64,000 nt of DNA, taken from Candidatus Poribacteria bacterium (GTDB taxonomy: Bacteria > Poribacteria > WGA-4E > GCA-2687025). The notes under the pieces are model-generated. The model was not told the origin of the DNA. It worked only from the letters and a program-made list of their open reading frames with translations, and did not search any database. The number at the start of each line of letters is the position of its first letter. Position 1 is the stretch's first letter. The translations under genes and the position numbers were made by a program. Location of the stretch: NCBI GenBank assembly GCA_028818695.1, contig JAPPNK010000029.1, positions 163,450 through 227,449 on the forward strand. The letters are read 5' to 3'. Positions 32,155-63,867 of the stretch are shown here, in pieces.

Positions 32155-34497
32155 ATGATCCCGCTGGCGGCGGCGTTCGCGGCGGGAGTTCTGGGCGGCT
32201 GCTATTCGATCCACTCGGCGCTAGCGCTGGGCGCGGTTGCGGCGGCCGCGCTTGGGTCATGGCATGCGCGCAACTGGAAAATTGCCGCGTATGCGCTCCT
32301 TGCGTTCATCGGCTGGGCGCGCTGGCATGCGCATGTGGAAACCCCCGTTCGCGCGCTTGAAGACCGTCAGTCTGTCCAAGCGGAAGGGTATGTCGTTGAA
32401 CGGGCGGAACGCGCCTTCAGCGTGGATCTGACGATTGTCGGTCAGGTTTTGCCGTCTGGAGAGCGCGGAAGGCTGCTGCTGCGCTGTCCGGCGGAACTGT
32501 CGGCGGAGTTTTCAGCCGGCGCAATGGTTTCAGCAAGCGGAGAGCTGCGCCAACCGACGCCGATGCGCAACCCGAACGGCTTCAACCAGGAGCTGTTTTT
32601 CAACGCGAAAGGAATCGACTCCGCCGTTCGGATTCGCAACCTGTCCGATATAGAAAGGATCGGCGTCGGCGGGCCGTTCTGGATGCGCGCGGCGTACCGC
32701 ATTCGGCAGGGGCTGCTCGCGCGTTTTTCCTCCGCGCTGAGCCCGCCAAACGACGCCCTTTTAGCGGGCATCCTGATTGGGGAGCGGCGCGCCATTCCCG
32801 AACAGATATTGGAAGCGTTCCGCGACGGCGGCGTCATCCATGTTCTCGTTGTGTCCGGCGCCAATTTCGCGCTCGTCGTCTCCATCGCGTATGTGCTCTT
32901 GCGGGCGGCGGGCGCGCCGCTGCGCGCGGTGTACGCCGCCTCGCTGTTTTTATGCTGGGCGTTCGCCTTGCTTGTCGGCTTTCATCCGTCCGTCGCGCGG
33001 GCGGGGACGCTCATCGCGCTTTTGATGCTTGGGCGTCTGCTGAATCGGGAAGCGGACATGATGAACCTGTTGGCGGCTAGCGCGCTGGCTCTGCTCATCT
33101 ACCGCCCCGCCAATATGTTTGACATCGGCTTTCAGCTCTCCTTCGCCGCGACCTTCGGCATCGTCTTTTTTCTGCCGAAATGGAACGACGCGCTTGAGCC
33201 GACGCGCCTCCGCCTCTTGGAACTGCCCGGCGGAAAACTGCTGTGGACATGGGGCGTTCAAACGGCGCTCGTTTCTTCGGCGGCGCATATTGCGACGATG
33301 CCGATCATCGGCTTTCATTTTCAAAAAGTATATCTGGCGGGCTTCGCGGCAAACCTGATTGTGGTTGCAATGATCGCGCTCATCACCGCGTCCGGCCTTG
33401 TCACGGCAGCGGCGGCGTTGTTATGGACGCCGCTCGGACGCTTTTACGGCGGAGCGACGGAGCTGGGATTCGATCTGCTGCTGCCGATTGTGCGCGCCTT
33501 TTCAGAGCTGCCTTATGCTGTGCTGAACGCGCCTCGGACATGGGCGGGATACTACTTCGTCTGCCTGTTTCTTCTTTTTTCGATCACATACGCCCGCTAC
33601 GTTCAGATGCGTCTGCGCGAGTGGACGCTGCTCGCGGGCGCGTGCATCCTGCTCTTGGCGCAAAGCCAGACCGCCGACGCGCCGAACGGTCTGCTGGAAG
33701 CGACTTTTTTGGATGTCGGTCAGGGAGACGCCGCCTTTATCCAACTCCCCGACAACACGCGCATTCTTATCGATGCAGGCTCCGCCTCTGAGTTCTGGGA
33801 CAACGGCGAGCGGGTCGTTGTTCCGTATCTGTTGAGCCGCGGAATCGACCGCCTTGACGCGGCTCTCATCACCCATGCCGACATCGACCATGCGGGCGGC
33901 ATCCCGTACGCGATACGCAATTTGCGAATCGACACGGTTCTGGGGGCGCCGCCTGGGAAAAGTGGGCTTGTCGAAGAAGCGGCGCGGGAGAGAGGAAGCC
34001 GCGTTCGTTACGGCGCAGGAGAAACGATCGCAGAAGGCATAGCGCGCGGGATGCCCTTTAGCGTCAAGACGCTTTATCCGCGCTCGGAGGCGGAGGTTGA
34101 CCTTGAGGACTCAAACCATAACGCAGATTCGTTTGTCGTCATGCTGGAGTACGGCGATTGCCGAATCTTGATGACAGGCGACATCGACGCGCAGACGGAG
34201 GCGGAGCTGACAAGGCGGCATCATCGCGGCGAGATTGACCTGTCGGCGGATATACTGAAAACGCCGCATCATGGCAGCAAGTCTTCCAGCGGAGAGCCGT
34301 TTTTGCGCGCCGTGTCGCCGCGCGCCGCGGTCATTTCAGCCGGACGCGGGAATATATACGGACATCCGCATCCGTCCGTTTTAGAGCGGCATGCGGCTTT
34401 AGGCGTTCAGACCTACCGAACCGACCTGTCTGGAGCTGTGCGCATCCTCACGGACGGACGGCGGATATGGGTCAAGCCGACGATACGCAAACCTTAG
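32155..34497 (+). CDS. comEC: ComEC/Rec2 DNA-uptake channel protein
   Basis: A 780-residue inner-membrane protein for passage of single-stranded DNA during natural transformation. It has an N-terminal membrane pair and OB-like DUF4131 region, the Competence domain with GILIGERRAIPEQ, VIHVLVVSGANFALV and MNLLAASALALLIYRP, and a C-terminal metallo-beta-lactamase-like domain with FLDVGQGDAAFI, DAALITHADIDHAGG and LKTPHHGSKSS. All parts are present, so the gene looks intact. ATG 32155 begins the first membrane segment; a longer frame from 32026 overlaps the isomerase and is not convincing. No other competence genes are in the window. Confidence 0.94.
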   Translation: MIPLAAAFAAGVLGGCYSIHSALALGAVAAAALGSWHARNWKIAAYALLAFIGWARWHAHVETPVRALEDRQSVQAEGYVVERAERAFSVDLTIVGQVLPSGERGRLLLRCPAELSAEFSAGAMVSASGELRQPTPMRNPNGFNQELFFNAKGIDSAVRIRNLSDIERIGVGGPFWMRAAYRIRQGLLARFSSALSPPNDALLAGILIGERRAIPEQILEAFRDGGVIHVLVVSGANFALVVSIAYVLLRAAGAPLRAVYAASLFLCWAFALLVGFHPSVARAGTLIALLMLGRLLNREADMMNLLAASALALLIYRPANMFDIGFQLSFAATFGIVFFLPKWNDALEPTRLRLLELPGGKLLWTWGVQTALVSSAAHIATMPIIGFHFQKVYLAGFAANLIVVAMIALITASGLVTAAAALLWTPLGRFYGGATELGFDLLLPIVRAFSELPYAVLNAPRTWAGYYFVCLFLLFSITYARYVQMRLREWTLLAGACILLLAQSQTADAPNGLLEATFLDVGQGDAAFIQLPDNTRILIDAGSASEFWDNGERVVVPYLLSRGIDRLDAALITHADIDHAGGIPYAIRNLRIDTVLGAPPGKSGLVEEAARERGSRVRYGAGETIAEGIARGMPFSVKTLYPRSEAEVDLEDSNHNADSFVVMLEYGDCRILMTGDIDAQTEAELTRRHHRGEIDLSADILKTPHHGSKSSSGEPFLRAVSPRAAVISAGRGNIYGHPHPSVLERHAALGVQTYRTDLSGAVRILTDGRRIWVKPTIRKP

Positions 34498-57641: not shown

Positions 57642-57705
57642 AGTTGGGACATTTGAACGAGTGATCGCTCTATTTACAGGAAGAGGCGCCGCCAACCAGG
57701 CAGTC

Positions 57706-57725
57706 ATTCCCGCGCAAGCGGGAAT
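57706..57725. repeat. ATTCCC-N8-GGGAAT palindrome (dRS3-like)
   Basis: ATTCCC GCGCAAGC GGGAAT with CAGTC and CCAGAGG flanks, another intact copy of the dispersed 20-base palindrome. It lies in the 315-base gap between the GT9 gene and the tandem paralogues, which also contains a gene remnant at its right-hand end. Confidence 0.8.
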
Positions 57726-57869
57726 CCAGAGGCGCCGCAGAAACCGTCCGCGTTCGCCAGGTGGAATGTCCTAACTAAAGCGCTAAGGTCAGCTGCTAGA
57801 CAGGCTTGTAGGAAGCGGGGTTGTGAAGGCGCGCAAGCGTTTCGTCGGCTTTAGGCGCGTCGCCTGCGA

Positions 57870-57925
57870 TCAGGGAGTAACGCCGCGCCAAGAATCCAGT
57901 ACGCTCGTTTAGATGGATCCACCGC
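57870..57925 (-). pseudogene. 5' remnant of a third copy of the tandem membrane-anchored gene
   Basis: On the minus strand, this stretch matches the first 18 or so codons of the two genes to the right: the part coding KRAYWVLG is nearly identical at DNA level (CGAGCGTACTGGATTCTTGG against CGAGCGTACTGGGTTCTTGG). The start codon has been lost and an in-frame stop TAA stands just before the matching part. The sequence between it and the next gene (about 57925-57956) matches the 38-base spacer between the two intact copies. It is therefore the broken start of a third tandem copy. Confidence 0.65.
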
Positions 57926-57956
57926 TCATTCTCCTTTTGGGGAAGAATCCCATACG

Positions 57957-58841
57957 TCATCGCCAACTTTCTTTCATCATCTCTATCTCCTCTTCTGAGA
58001 ACCCTGAAAGGTCCGGCTCCGAATCGGCGAGAACGTACTCTTTTGTTCCGCCGCTTGGGAGATCCACGGAACGCACAAGAGAGCCGTCGCTTTTGCGGCG
58101 GTAGTATGTGATCTGAAGCCCGCTGTCAAACTTGATGGTTCCCATACTAGAACTGCCAGAATAGCTAGTACTTGGAACGGTATGCATGTTCTGTTCGTTA
58201 ATGGCAACGTGTTCTTCCAAGAGCGCGTTGTACCGCTCAACGAAGTTTGGAGCGACATAGACGACCTTTCCTTCATCAATCTCTTGGCGGATGTAATCGC
58301 CTTTTGGCTCTCTGGAAAGAAGCCCATCCTCTACAGCCTTCAACATCTCTTCCTCTAACTCGCTCACACGCCGGCGAGCCGCTTCGGTGGGGCGGTATAT
58401 TTTCCCAAACCCTTCTTCTCGCTGAACGATACCGACCTCCATAAGATCGTCTCCGTAGTGAGAATCCCAGTGAGAATAGTCTTCTCTCCAATCTTCTGGA
58501 GGTTCGCCTACGCCGCCGGCAACATCGTATAAAATGGAAGGCTTATGTGCAGAGAGCGATTCGTCAGCGTCAACGTTTTGCTGCGTTTCCGCTCCATGTT
58601 GGCGATTCTGATCACTCTTAGGCTCAGACGTTTCCGCCGTTTCGATGCGCGGAGTTTGCAGATTTTCTTGCTTCGGTTGGACGCGCGGACTCTGACCTGC
58701 CTCATCCAAGAGAGCGGTACCTCGCCCGTCATCTGTATCTGTATCTCCGCCGTTTGAAACAACGGAAACATAAATGACGACCGCAATCAGCGCCAGCAAT
58801 CCCATGCCAAGAACCCAGTACGCTCGCTTCGTTCGATTCAT
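57957..58841 (-). CDS. Membrane-anchored protein of unknown function, tandem paralogue A
   Basis: A 294-residue protein with one membrane helix near the N-terminus (about 9-29, YWVLGMGLLALIAVVIYVSVV) preceded by a basic stretch, so the rest should lie outside the cytoplasm. A low-complexity Asp/Glu/Gln-rich linker (about 30-95) leads to a globular domain with RRRVSELEEEMLKAVEDGLL and RYNALLEEHVAINEQ, probably helical, and a C-terminal strand region with TYYRRKSDGSLVRSVDLPSGGTKEYV. I do not recognise the family. It is a close copy of the gene just upstream (58880-59728), differing mainly in the linker, where it has about 12 extra residues. Confidence 0.78.
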   Translation of the reverse strand: MNRTKRAYWVLGMGLLALIAVVIYVSVVSNGGDTDTDDGRGTALLDEAGQSPRVQPKQENLQTPRIETAETSEPKSDQNRQHGAETQQNVDADESLSAHKPSILYDVAGGVGEPPEDWREDYSHWDSHYGDDLMEVGIVQREEGFGKIYRPTEAARRRVSELEEEMLKAVEDGLLSREPKGDYIRQEIDEGKVVYVAPNFVERYNALLEEHVAINEQNMHTVPSTSYSGSSSMGTIKFDSGLQITYYRRKSDGSLVRSVDLPSGGTKEYVLADSEPDLSGFSEEEIEMMKESWR

Positions 58842-58879
58842 CGCTCATTCTCTTTTTGGGAGGGGAAGAATCCCATACG

Positions 58880-59728
58880 TCATCGCCAACTTTTTTTTAT
58901 CATCTCTATCTCCTCATCCGAGAATCCTGAAAGGTCCGGCTCCGAATCGGCGAGAACATACTCTTTTGTTCCGCCGCTTGGGAGATCCACGGAACGCACA
59001 AGAGAGCCATCGCCCTTGCGGCGATAGTAGTCAATCTGAAGCCCGCTGTCAAACTTGATGGTTCCCAAACTAGGAGTGGAAGAATAGCCAGCTTTTGGAA
59101 CGGTATGCATGTGCTGTTCGTTAATGGCAACGTATTCTTCCAAGAGCGCGTTGTACTGGTCAACAAAGTTTGGAGCGACATAGACGACCTTTCCTGCCTC
59201 AATTTCTTGGCGGATGTAGTCGCCTTTTGGCTCTCTGGAAAGAAGACCATCCTCGGCAGCTTTCAACATCTCTTCCTCTAACTCGCTCTCACGCCGGCGA
59301 GCCGCTTCGGTGGGGCGGTATATTATATCAATCCCTTCTTCTCGCTCGATCATACCGACCTTCACAAGCTCGTCTCCGAAGTTAGAATCCCAGTGAGAAT
59401 AGTCTTCTTTCCAATCTTCTGGAGGTTCGCCGACGCCGCCGGCGACATCGTATAAAATGGCTGGGGGGATTTCAGAGAGCGATTCGTCAGCGTCAACGTT
59501 TTGCTGCGTTTCCGCTTCATGTTGGCGGTTCTGATCATTCTTAGGCTCAGACGTTTCCGCCGTTTCGATGCGCGAACTTTGACCCGCCTCATCCAAGAGA
59601 GCGGTACTTCGCCCGTCATCTGTATCTGTATCTCCGCCGTTTGAAACAACGGAAACGTAAATGACGACCGCAACCAGCGCCAGCAATCCCATGCCAAGAA
59701 CCCAGTACGCTCGCTTCGTTCGATTCAT
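58880..59728 (-). CDS. Membrane-anchored protein of unknown function, tandem paralogue B
   Basis: A 282-residue near-copy of the next gene downstream: the same N-terminal membrane helix, acidic linker, helical RRRESELEEEMLKAAEDGLL segment, and end region with DYYRRKGDGSLVRSVDL. Differences are scattered substitutions and a shorter linker. Only 38 bases separate the two genes. No enzymatic motif is visible. The copies have stayed intact and full length, suggesting that both are functional. An extracytoplasmic structural or regulatory role is possible, but this is a guess. Confidence 0.78.
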   Translation of the reverse strand: MNRTKRAYWVLGMGLLALVAVVIYVSVVSNGGDTDTDDGRSTALLDEAGQSSRIETAETSEPKNDQNRQHEAETQQNVDADESLSEIPPAILYDVAGGVGEPPEDWKEDYSHWDSNFGDELVKVGMIEREEGIDIIYRPTEAARRRESELEEEMLKAAEDGLLSREPKGDYIRQEIEAGKVVYVAPNFVDQYNALLEEYVAINEQHMHTVPKAGYSSTPSLGTIKFDSGLQIDYYRRKGDGSLVRSVDLPSGGTKEYVLADSEPDLSGFSDEEIEMIKKSWR

Positions 59729-59883
59729 CGTTCACTCTCCTTCCGTTTGCGCGAAGTTCTAAAGCATTTGCCGCCTCTTTACAGACCGCATGGGTATCTT
59801 AACATGAGCCGCAAGCCGTTCGCAAGCGATTCGGCAACACTTTCGCCGCTCATGGCAAAACTTCAACCAAGCCTTTAAAGGCG

Positions 59884-61757: not shown

Positions 61758-62563
61758 TCAGCGGGAGCTCGACGGCGCACGCCCCGCTTCGATGAACGCA
61801 CAAACTGAATCAGATGCGCCGCATGCGGGTCTTCCCCCGCCGTCTCTTCCGCCTGATCAAGCGCGTCCGCCAACTTCAAATCGGAACGAAAAATCAAACG
61901 AAACGCCCGTTTCAACGCCGAAATCGACTCCTCCGGCACATCCGCCATCGGGTGGCTCTTCACAACGCCACGCCCAATCAGGTTCAGGCTGCGCGCCCAA
62001 GCGGGGTTGCCCTCCGTGAGGCTGTACGGCGGCGCATCCTGCGTCACCTTCGAGTATCCGCCGATCATGGAGCCGCGCCCGACGCGCACGAACTGATGAA
62101 ATCCGGCAAGCGCGCCGATGCGGCACGGTCCCTCAATTTCAACATGTCCGCCCAGCGACACAAAGTTCGCCATGATGATCCCGTCCCCGATAACGCAGTC
62201 ATGGGCGATGTTTGTCCAATGCATGAGCAGGTTGCCGTTTCCGATCATGGTCGCTTTTCCGTCGAAGGAGGAGGCGGAAATGGTTACATACTCGCGGATA
62301 ATGTTATGGTCTCCAATCACAGCTCTGCAGTCGCCGCCTTTAAATTTGAGGTCGACGGAGGAGTGGCCTATAGCGGCGCCCTGATGGATTCGACATTCCG
62401 AGCCGATCGTCGCCGCGCCGTGTATGCGCACATGCGAATCGATCCATGTGTTCTTGCCGATGGACGCGCCGGCGTCAACGATGCTGTAAGCTCCAATCTC
62501 GACGCCGTCTGCCAGTTTTGCATCGGGGCTGACGATGGCGGTAGGATGTATCTGGGAGCTCAT
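61754..62563 (-). CDS. lpxA: UDP-N-acetylglucosamine acyltransferase
   Basis: LpxA adds the first acyl chain to UDP-GlcNAc. The 269-residue protein starts IHPTAIVSPDAKLADGVEIG, the left-handed beta-helix hexapeptide pattern, with the catalytic His in NLLMHWTNIAHDCVIGDG and FVSLGGHVEIEG further on; the helical C-terminus has AYSKVTQD-like and EGNPAWARSLNLIG segments. It overlaps its neighbours by 4 bases on both sides. The acyl chain length is not predictable. Confidence 0.96.
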   Translation of the reverse strand: MSSQIHPTAIVSPDAKLADGVEIGAYSIVDAGASIGKNTWIDSHVRIHGAATIGSECRIHQGAAIGHSSVDLKFKGGDCRAVIGDHNIIREYVTISASSFDGKATMIGNGNLLMHWTNIAHDCVIGDGIIMANFVSLGGHVEIEGPCRIGALAGFHQFVRVGRGSMIGGYSKVTQDAPPYSLTEGNPAWARSLNLIGRGVVKSHPMADVPEESISALKRAFRLIFRSDLKLADALDQAEETAGEDPHAAHLIQFVRSSKRGVRRRAPAE

Positions 62564-63867
62564 TTAGACGCCTCCTTTTCGCGGTTGACCAGCGCGAAGC
62601 TGAAATCTGCCTCCGCGGTCCGTTTTGCATTGATGTAAGCGGTTCCGCGTAAAAAACCGATCGAACGGCGCAGGCGGGTTATTTCGACTCTCAATTCGAT
62701 CTGATCGCCGGGAACCGCCGGCGCCCGAAACTTCACATTGTTCATCGTCATAAGATACGCAATCTTGCCCTCAAAATCGGCGTGTCGACTCACCAACACC
62801 CCCGCTGTTTGCGCAAGCGCCTCCGCAATCAACACGCCCGGCATGACCGGATGCCCCGGAAAATGCCCCTGAAAAAACGGCTCATTATACGACACACACT
62901 TAATCCCGGTAATGCGCTTGCCCTCTTCGATAGCAACGATGCGGTCAACCAGCAAAAACGGGAACCGGTGCGGTATCGCCGCCTCAATCTCCGCAGGTCC
63001 CATCGGCGGATTCAGCCGAAAACGCTCCTCGTCGATCCGATCGCGCAGCTGCTGCGCCAAACGGTGATTCAGCGCATGCTGCGAACGCGCCGCCAGCGCA
63101 TACCCCCGCGGCATCCGCCCCGCCAAACGCAGATCTCCGATCAGGTCAAGCAGCTTGTGGCGCGCCAGCTCGTTCTCAAAGCGAAACCGCCCCTTGCGCA
63201 AGCCGCGTTCATCGATCACCATCACATTCTCGTCGTTGGCGCCTTTGCCGAGACCTGCCGCCTTGAGCGTCTCAATCTCATCCGCAAAACAGAAGGTGCG
63301 CGCCGGGGCGATTTCACGCGCATATGTCTCCGGCGCGATGTTGAAGGTCGCGGTCTGGCTTTCGACGCCCCTTCGGTCGTATTTGTCGAACACGAAGCCG
63401 GCGCGGAACCCGTCCTCTGGATACAGCGTCACGGAGCGGTCGCCGTCCACAGCGGCCGTCGGCGCGTGGACCTCAATATAACGCCGCGGGGCGTCCTGCG
63501 TCTGTATGCCTGCCTTCTGAATCGCCTCGACAAACGGAAGCGCGCTCCCGTCGCCGATGGGCGGCTCCGGCGCGTTCAGCTCGGCGACGCAGTTGTCGAT
63601 GCCCATCCCTGTCAGCGCTGACAAAAGATGCTCTATCGTTTGAACGCGGGCGCCGTCCCGCTCAAGGGCGGCGCTGCGCCCCGCCCCGACGATGGAGCTC
63701 TCGCTGTTGACCGGTATTTCAGGACAGTCGGGCATATCTGTCCGCACAAACACAATGCCTGCGTCGGGAGATGCCGGCTTGAGCGTCAAGAGCGCGTCAA
63801 TTCCGAGCATCAGTCCAACGCCCGACACCTGTACCGGATCTGACAAGGTCTGCTGCGCCGCATTCAA
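62560..63867 (-). CDS. LpxC-FabZ fusion (deacetylase plus hydroxyacyl-ACP dehydratase)
   Basis: A bifunctional enzyme of 435 residues joining LpxC (about 1-285; UDP-3-O-acyl-GlcNAc deacetylase) to FabZ (about 288-430). LpxC zinc and catalytic residues are seen in VQTIEHLLSALTGMGIDN, FENELARHKLLDLIGDLRL and SQHALNHRLA. FabZ has FFQGHFPGHPVMPGVLIAEALAQ with its catalytic His and Glu. The fusion is known in Bacteroidetes and some other phyla. Oddly, the first LpxC loop has GVGLMLG for the usual GVGLHSG. The start codon is TTG 63867 with GAGGAG 7 bases upstream. The remaining 133 bases to the window edge show no gene. Confidence 0.93.
   Translation of the reverse strand: MNAAQQTLSDPVQVSGVGLMLGIDALLTLKPASPDAGIVFVRTDMPDCPEIPVNSESSIVGAGRSAALERDGARVQTIEHLLSALTGMGIDNCVAELNAPEPPIGDGSALPFVEAIQKAGIQTQDAPRRYIEVHAPTAAVDGDRSVTLYPEDGFRAGFVFDKYDRRGVESQTATFNIAPETYAREIAPARTFCFADEIETLKAAGLGKGANDENVMVIDERGLRKGRFRFENELARHKLLDLIGDLRLAGRMPRGYALAARSQHALNHRLAQQLRDRIDEERFRLNPPMGPAEIEAAIPHRFPFLLVDRIVAIEEGKRITGIKCVSYNEPFFQGHFPGHPVMPGVLIAEALAQTAGVLVSRHADFEGKIAYLMTMNNVKFRAPAVPGDQIELRVEITRLRRSIGFLRGTAYINAKRTAEADFSFALVNREKEASK

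Follow-up and report, generated by a model that had tools for sequence, protein, structure and literature searches.

Among the ECF sigma factors, IutY of Pseudomonas putida (ECF243) is a sigma/anti-sigma hybrid whose sigma part is freed by proteolysis (PMC5411451; PMC8999054), and the accessible part of a 2022 review names it as the sole ECF sigma factor with this activation route that had been characterised experimentally (PMC8999054). IutY is a single protein with an ECF sigma domain, one transmembrane segment and a domain on the outside (PMC5411451; PMC8999054), a layout that is also predicted for the fusions that we report here from a Poribacteria genome. Unlike IutY, these fusions number at least 12 in one genome, their outside domains have no match in the libraries searched, and they come with a conserved internal start site and with sigma-less gene copies such as genes A and B described below; no mention of an internal start or Shine-Dalgarno sequence of IutY was found in the accessible sections of PMC5411451. 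The ECF48, ECF52 and ECF53 groups of Actinobacteria likewise consist of a sigma factor with a C-terminal transmembrane extension, and in SCO4117 the last domain is preceded by a proline-rich outside region, but according to the same part of the review these groups have a zinc-finger anti-sigma part together with one or two helices (PMC8999054), and none of the groups was matched here. Some phage endolysins resemble the dual product proposed below in having two in-frame overlapping ORFs with a common stop codon, as given in the accessible text of PMC9430671, but they are not regulators, and the internal product of the present fusions is a putative one. A search by title and abstract opening, which had most subscription journals outside its coverage and is thus weak evidence of absence, found no literature on Poribacteria genes of this kind or on ECF sigma fusions with an internal start.

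The locus lies on contig JAPPNK010000029.1 within a 64,000-nt stretch (the window, i.e., the whole stretch of DNA that was analysed), and its features are collected in Table 1. The original prediction of two intact ORFs in tandem with a 38-base gap was confirmed, both genes being on the minus strand (A, 282 aa; B, 294 aa), while their description as near-identical captured a real duplication but was slightly generous, as the proteins share 85% identity and differ by 12 codons in frame. Direct repeats at the locus comprise 300 nt at 91%, 182 nt at 93% and a 66-nt family in three copies, the third of which falls within the remnant of a further gene (57876-57941). The ATG of A is preceded by an AAGGAG Shine-Dalgarno sequence, and no Shine-Dalgarno match of at least 4 letters was found 5' of the ATG of B. 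The predicted membrane anchoring also fits the translations of both genes, in which a short basic N-terminus is followed by one hydrophobic stretch, with about 8 residues preceding the putative helix. A low-confidence AlphaFold model of A (B as sole companion sequence; mean pLDDT 48.4, pTM 0.30) has a helix at residues 3-30. The element upstream of A was found at four places in the genome at ≤ 3 mismatches (reversed control pattern: 0) and was rejected as a regulon motif because it has these four places only. Since it is limited to A and three genes of an array on contig C14, it travels with the gene unit, and units have thus moved between loci. Elsewhere in the window (62560-63867), one ORF reads by eye as what we take to be LpxC fused to FabZ. 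Of 80 hits to its protein, which served to place the organism, the top two belong to Poribacteria MAGs (47 and 46% identity) and the third (46%) carries a Negativicutes label, so that the organism is Poribacteria-like.

Table 1. Coordinates of features at the A/B locus (positions in the window)
Feature	Position	Strand	Description
Gene A	58880..59728	minus	282 aa, sigma-less family member; predicted membrane-anchored; basis: ORF
Gene B	57957..58841	minus	294 aa, duplicate of A; predicted membrane-anchored; basis: ORF
A/B spacer	58842..58879	minus	38 bases; repeated 3' of B
Predicted membrane anchor of A	59642..59707	minus	residues ~8-29; hydrophobic stretch in translation
Upstream element of A	59789..59814	minus	otherwise only at C14_1, C14_2, C14_3
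QSSR in A	59570..59581	minus	at the position of QSPR of most members; proline absent
QSPR in B	58683..58694	minus	predicted outside the membrane
Remnant, 5' part	57876..57956	minus	spacer copy, SD-like AAGGAG, GTG, ~15 codons of family N-terminus; alignment to B and C14 copies
Remnant, 3' part	57832..~57875-57879	minus	last codons/stop region and 3' flank, C14_1-like; out-of-frame joint after internal deletion

The third, decayed copy with its spacer downstream of the pair is real and longer than originally described, with a total of about 125 bases in which 5' sequence of a family gene runs directly into a 3' end with its 3' flank. The start of a third copy had been noticed correctly, but a C14_1-like end and flank are present as well, the switch between the two lying at about 57875. 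The similarity extends well beyond some 20 bases: aligned to the spacer and start of B the remnant scores 91, compared with 27 for the best of 200 mononucleotide shuffles, its 3' part scores 71 against the end and 3' flank of C14_1 (best of 200 shuffles, 27), and an 18-nt core of this 3' part occurs free of mismatches at two genome places only, the remnant and C14_1. The spacer copy 3' of B is 4 nt shorter than the A/B spacer. The start codon, thought to be lost, is GTG (57922-57920) where A and B have ATG; the change is there, but GTG can start translation, so the start is not clearly lost. The in-frame stop was also found, located past the deletion joint, where it would close a 23-residue peptide. 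Judged from these alignments, the remnant is an internal-deletion scar of a third gene and, because its coding part can be aligned further to the C14 copies than to A or B, probably an older paralogue and not a fresh copy of B. A short palindromic stretch (ttcccgcgcaagcgggaa, 57704-57735) adjoins it and is possibly a dispersed repeat.

Ten clear family members were found in the source genome (3.57 Mb, 35 contigs), namely A and B, four in tandem on C14, two on C16, one on C9 and one on C3, so that repeated duplication and loss, as proposed for the locus, holds genome-wide (groups of 2, 4, 2, 1, and 1, plus the scar). Between A and B, dS was 0.136 and dN 0.076, giving an omega of 0.56 (anchor part 0.22, linker 0.48, ectodomain 0.63), and pN was lower than pS (47/656 vs. 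24/189; Fisher p = 0.024 on rounded counts). The two genes thus look maintained by weak constraint, and this omega together with pN < pS gives no sign of positive selection on the pair. A constant anchor with a variable ectodomain, a pattern not seen in A/B, characterizes C14 copies 2, 3, and 4 (dS 0.085-0.181 in the anchors, 1.18-3.27 in the ectodomains) and the C16 pair (0.115 vs. 1.18), for which either the anchors may have been homogenised by gene conversion or the ectodomains swapped under a common anchor. The selection on dosage or variation that had been suggested for the locus is accordingly without evidence here as to dosage, whereas variation is better supported in other arrays, as in C14 copies 2-4.

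At E ≤ 0.001, family members were present in two of the 84 genomes of the phylum, the source genome and G007, and none was confirmed outside the phylum among 32 pattern matches in genome contigs and 27 in viral contigs. The G007 members (L045 3128-6903; L047 694-3405) adjoin what we take by eye to be pieces of an STT3-type oligosaccharyltransferase and a GT2 glycosyltransferase. The anchor combined with a QSPR-like motif gave 35 matches in the source genome, seven of them weaker than 1e-6 and possibly due to chance and 11 of the remaining 28 in fusions, as compared to one weak match in the 83 other genomes (E ≤ 0.001), and is nearly private to the source genome. Stand-alone sigma-less members occur in several arrays. 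A second array (L161, C13:248218-252437) consists of six anchor-QSPR genes without sigma; their ectodomain looks helical and is similar to those of the sigma fusions on C21 and C35.

The designation as an unknown surface protein misses the main point, namely that the family corresponds to ECF sigma-anchor-ectodomain fusions without their sigma part. Residues 34-282 of A match the C3 member (E = 1.3e-24), which forms the C-terminal portion of a protein of 488 residues that starts with an ECF sigma factor (TIGR02937, E = 5.7e-23). The same model matched all four fusions scanned (E = 8.6e-20, 9e-25, 3.8e-21, and the C3 value) as a complete N-terminal sigma module, and the sigma modules of eight fusions were aligned. 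No sigma match was found in A or B with NCBIfam or Pfam, which makes them sigma-less relatives and not tethered sigma factors, and the start of the sigma-less genes corresponds to the Met located after the sigma module in the fusions. With the N-terminal anchor as query, further fusions were found in tandem on C21 and C19 and singly on C35, while the sigma-anchor linker added others on C2, C9, and C35 and had matches in 11 of the 84 genomes. A broader profile recovered fusions in 15 of the 84 (families f1, f3, f5, f6, and f7; none in 58 genomes of f2). Twelve fusions of the source genome were examined, with the exclusion of a fragment at C26:273263 (168-residue open frame). A hydropathy peak of 1.6-3.0, predicted as a single helix, follows the sigma module in all 32 fusions of a first set, and was not found after the joint in two of the 33 fusions of a further set (L236 and L237). 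Four sigma fusions stand in a row at L159 (C19:28485-35889), with a sigma-less fragment with a disrupted anchor among them (33560-33745); the ectodomains of three are presumably SnoaL/NTF2-like, judged by eye. The site-2 protease family PF02163 was detected in 20/20 genomes and 14/14 controls and is uninformative as evidence for a proteolysis partner, being present wherever it was searched.

The joint between sigma module and anchor was scored for a GGAGG or AGGAG followed, at a distance of 4-12 nt, by an in-frame ATG or GTG. Such a site was present in 45 of 65 fusions (15 genomes) vs. 61 of 1127 other in-frame starts, counts that are not independent, as the fusions are related. Because a start anywhere in a joint zone of 17 or 24 codons was counted, the chance rate per fusion is closer to 10% than to the 5% of a single control start. 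Split by set, the figures were 24/32 vs. 28/544 other in-frame starts of the same ORFs in the first set (11/12 fusions of the source genome and 13/20 from ten other genomes) and 21/33 vs. 33/583 in the further set, with at least one scoring fusion in each of the 15 genomes; 20 of the 65, including seven of the first-set relatives, had no scored site. Of the 76 matches to the broader profile, 32 first-set and 33 further ones were scored and the remainder was not fetched or was dropped, the further set leaving out repeats, duplicates of junctions in the first set, and matches that started after profile position 12 or ended before 50. Most fusions of the source genome read GGAGGA, nine bases and ATG, in frame, at the joint, and many relatives have AGGAGG(T) before ATG. 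The Gly-Gly pair at the joint is coded as GGAGG in 24/27 cases of the first set and 21/21 of the further set, as opposed to 7/40 and 18/52 elsewhere, and this far higher usage implies that the bases are kept beyond the need for the amino acids. As the long-form starts of 11 fusions of the source genome have Shine-Dalgarno matches of 4 to 6 letters and the internal site has 5, the internal site seems comparable with them and not clearly stronger.

A QSPR-like motif predicted to lie outside the membrane was found in 27 of 32 members, sigma-less and fused, despite their different ectodomains, in a set that was partly chosen by this motif; A is one of the five without it. It might serve these proteins as a common site of processing or docking. 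The ectodomains had no match above chance in Pfam, NCBIfam or PDB sequences, and among the Pfam matches of 11 members (E ≤ 1) there was no classical anti-sigma domain, whether cytoplasmic or FecR-like outside, so that an anti-sigma role for the ectodomain is supported by no domain.

We propose, with a probability of roughly one in two, that A and B are separate gene copies, lacking sigma, of the anchor-ectodomain half of proteins whose fused genes yield both a tethered sigma factor and a sigma-less form. Homology, fusion, the shared start position, the conserved internal Shine-Dalgarno sequence, duplication and the scar are observed; that the short form is produced, the orientation in the membrane, proteolysis and partnering are the parts that we infer. 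A fusion would keep its sigma factor at the inner membrane and read, through its ectodomain, a signal outside the cytoplasm, and cleavage near the membrane would, by analogy with IutY, free the sigma factor. The conserved internal ribosome-binding site at the joint may additionally produce a sigma-less ectodomain form, of which A and B would be gene copies. With only about 8 cytoplasmic residues, they should not signal inward alone, and since a sigma-less protein cannot release sigma, they would act as partners or decoys; pairing with sigma-bearing forms, or competing with them for a ligand, partner or protease, may be their likeliest role and would set the threshold of those forms. The locus itself grows by duplication of whole units (A/B) and shrinks by deletion (the remnant).

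Several observations could be accommodated differently. We doubt a reading in which A and B encode adhesin- or receptor-like envelope proteins of the ordinary sort, diversified by duplication and by swapping of modules, that share with sigma factors a domain history only: the lack of a sigma part in both, the family arrays at several loci, and the constant anchors with divergent ectodomains on C14 and C16 would suit such proteins, but in tandem arrays both modules also occur attached to complete ECF sigma factors, and the constant/variable pattern is absent from A and B themselves. The scar beside B, a 174-residue stand-alone fragment among the C19 fusions (frame at L159 9530), and an A/B omega only moderately below 1 are what would be expected if the sigma-less genes were broken-off ends of fusions, copied and lost neutrally without a role. 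We regard this as quite improbable, given that A and B are both open with an in-frame length change and pN < pS (p = 0.024), and that stand-alone members occur in more than one array.

The GGAGG at the joint might moreover be no start at all, but a pause site that aids helix insertion or a DNA site of module recombination, as it stands directly 5' of the hydrophobic helix in most fusions and modules were seemingly exchanged at the joint. This is unlikely in our view, because the spacing to ATG/GTG is start-like, the sigma-less genes begin at that very codon, and L236 and L237 keep the site though the helix is absent there. Returning to the dual-product reading, its extension beyond the locus is more tentative than the proposal for A and B: in several Poribacteria families, ECF sigma genes may make two in-frame proteins, the shorter one from the conserved internal ribosome-binding site; in a single lineage this twin would have been freed as separate genes, A and B included, and spread into arrays with anchors homogenised by recombination and diverging ectodomains, as co-receptors or decoys that tune many tethered sigma factors.

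The setting, tethered ECF sigma factors, is of a known kind, and the conserved internal start is its surprising part. Tethered sigma factors lead from an outside signal to transcription within one protein, and the source genome shows the birth, duplication, anchor homogenisation and loss of such modules side by side. A conserved second start, if true, would be a built-in setting of the ratio between sigma-bearing and sigma-less receptors, and would account for the existence of separate sigma-less genes like A and B.
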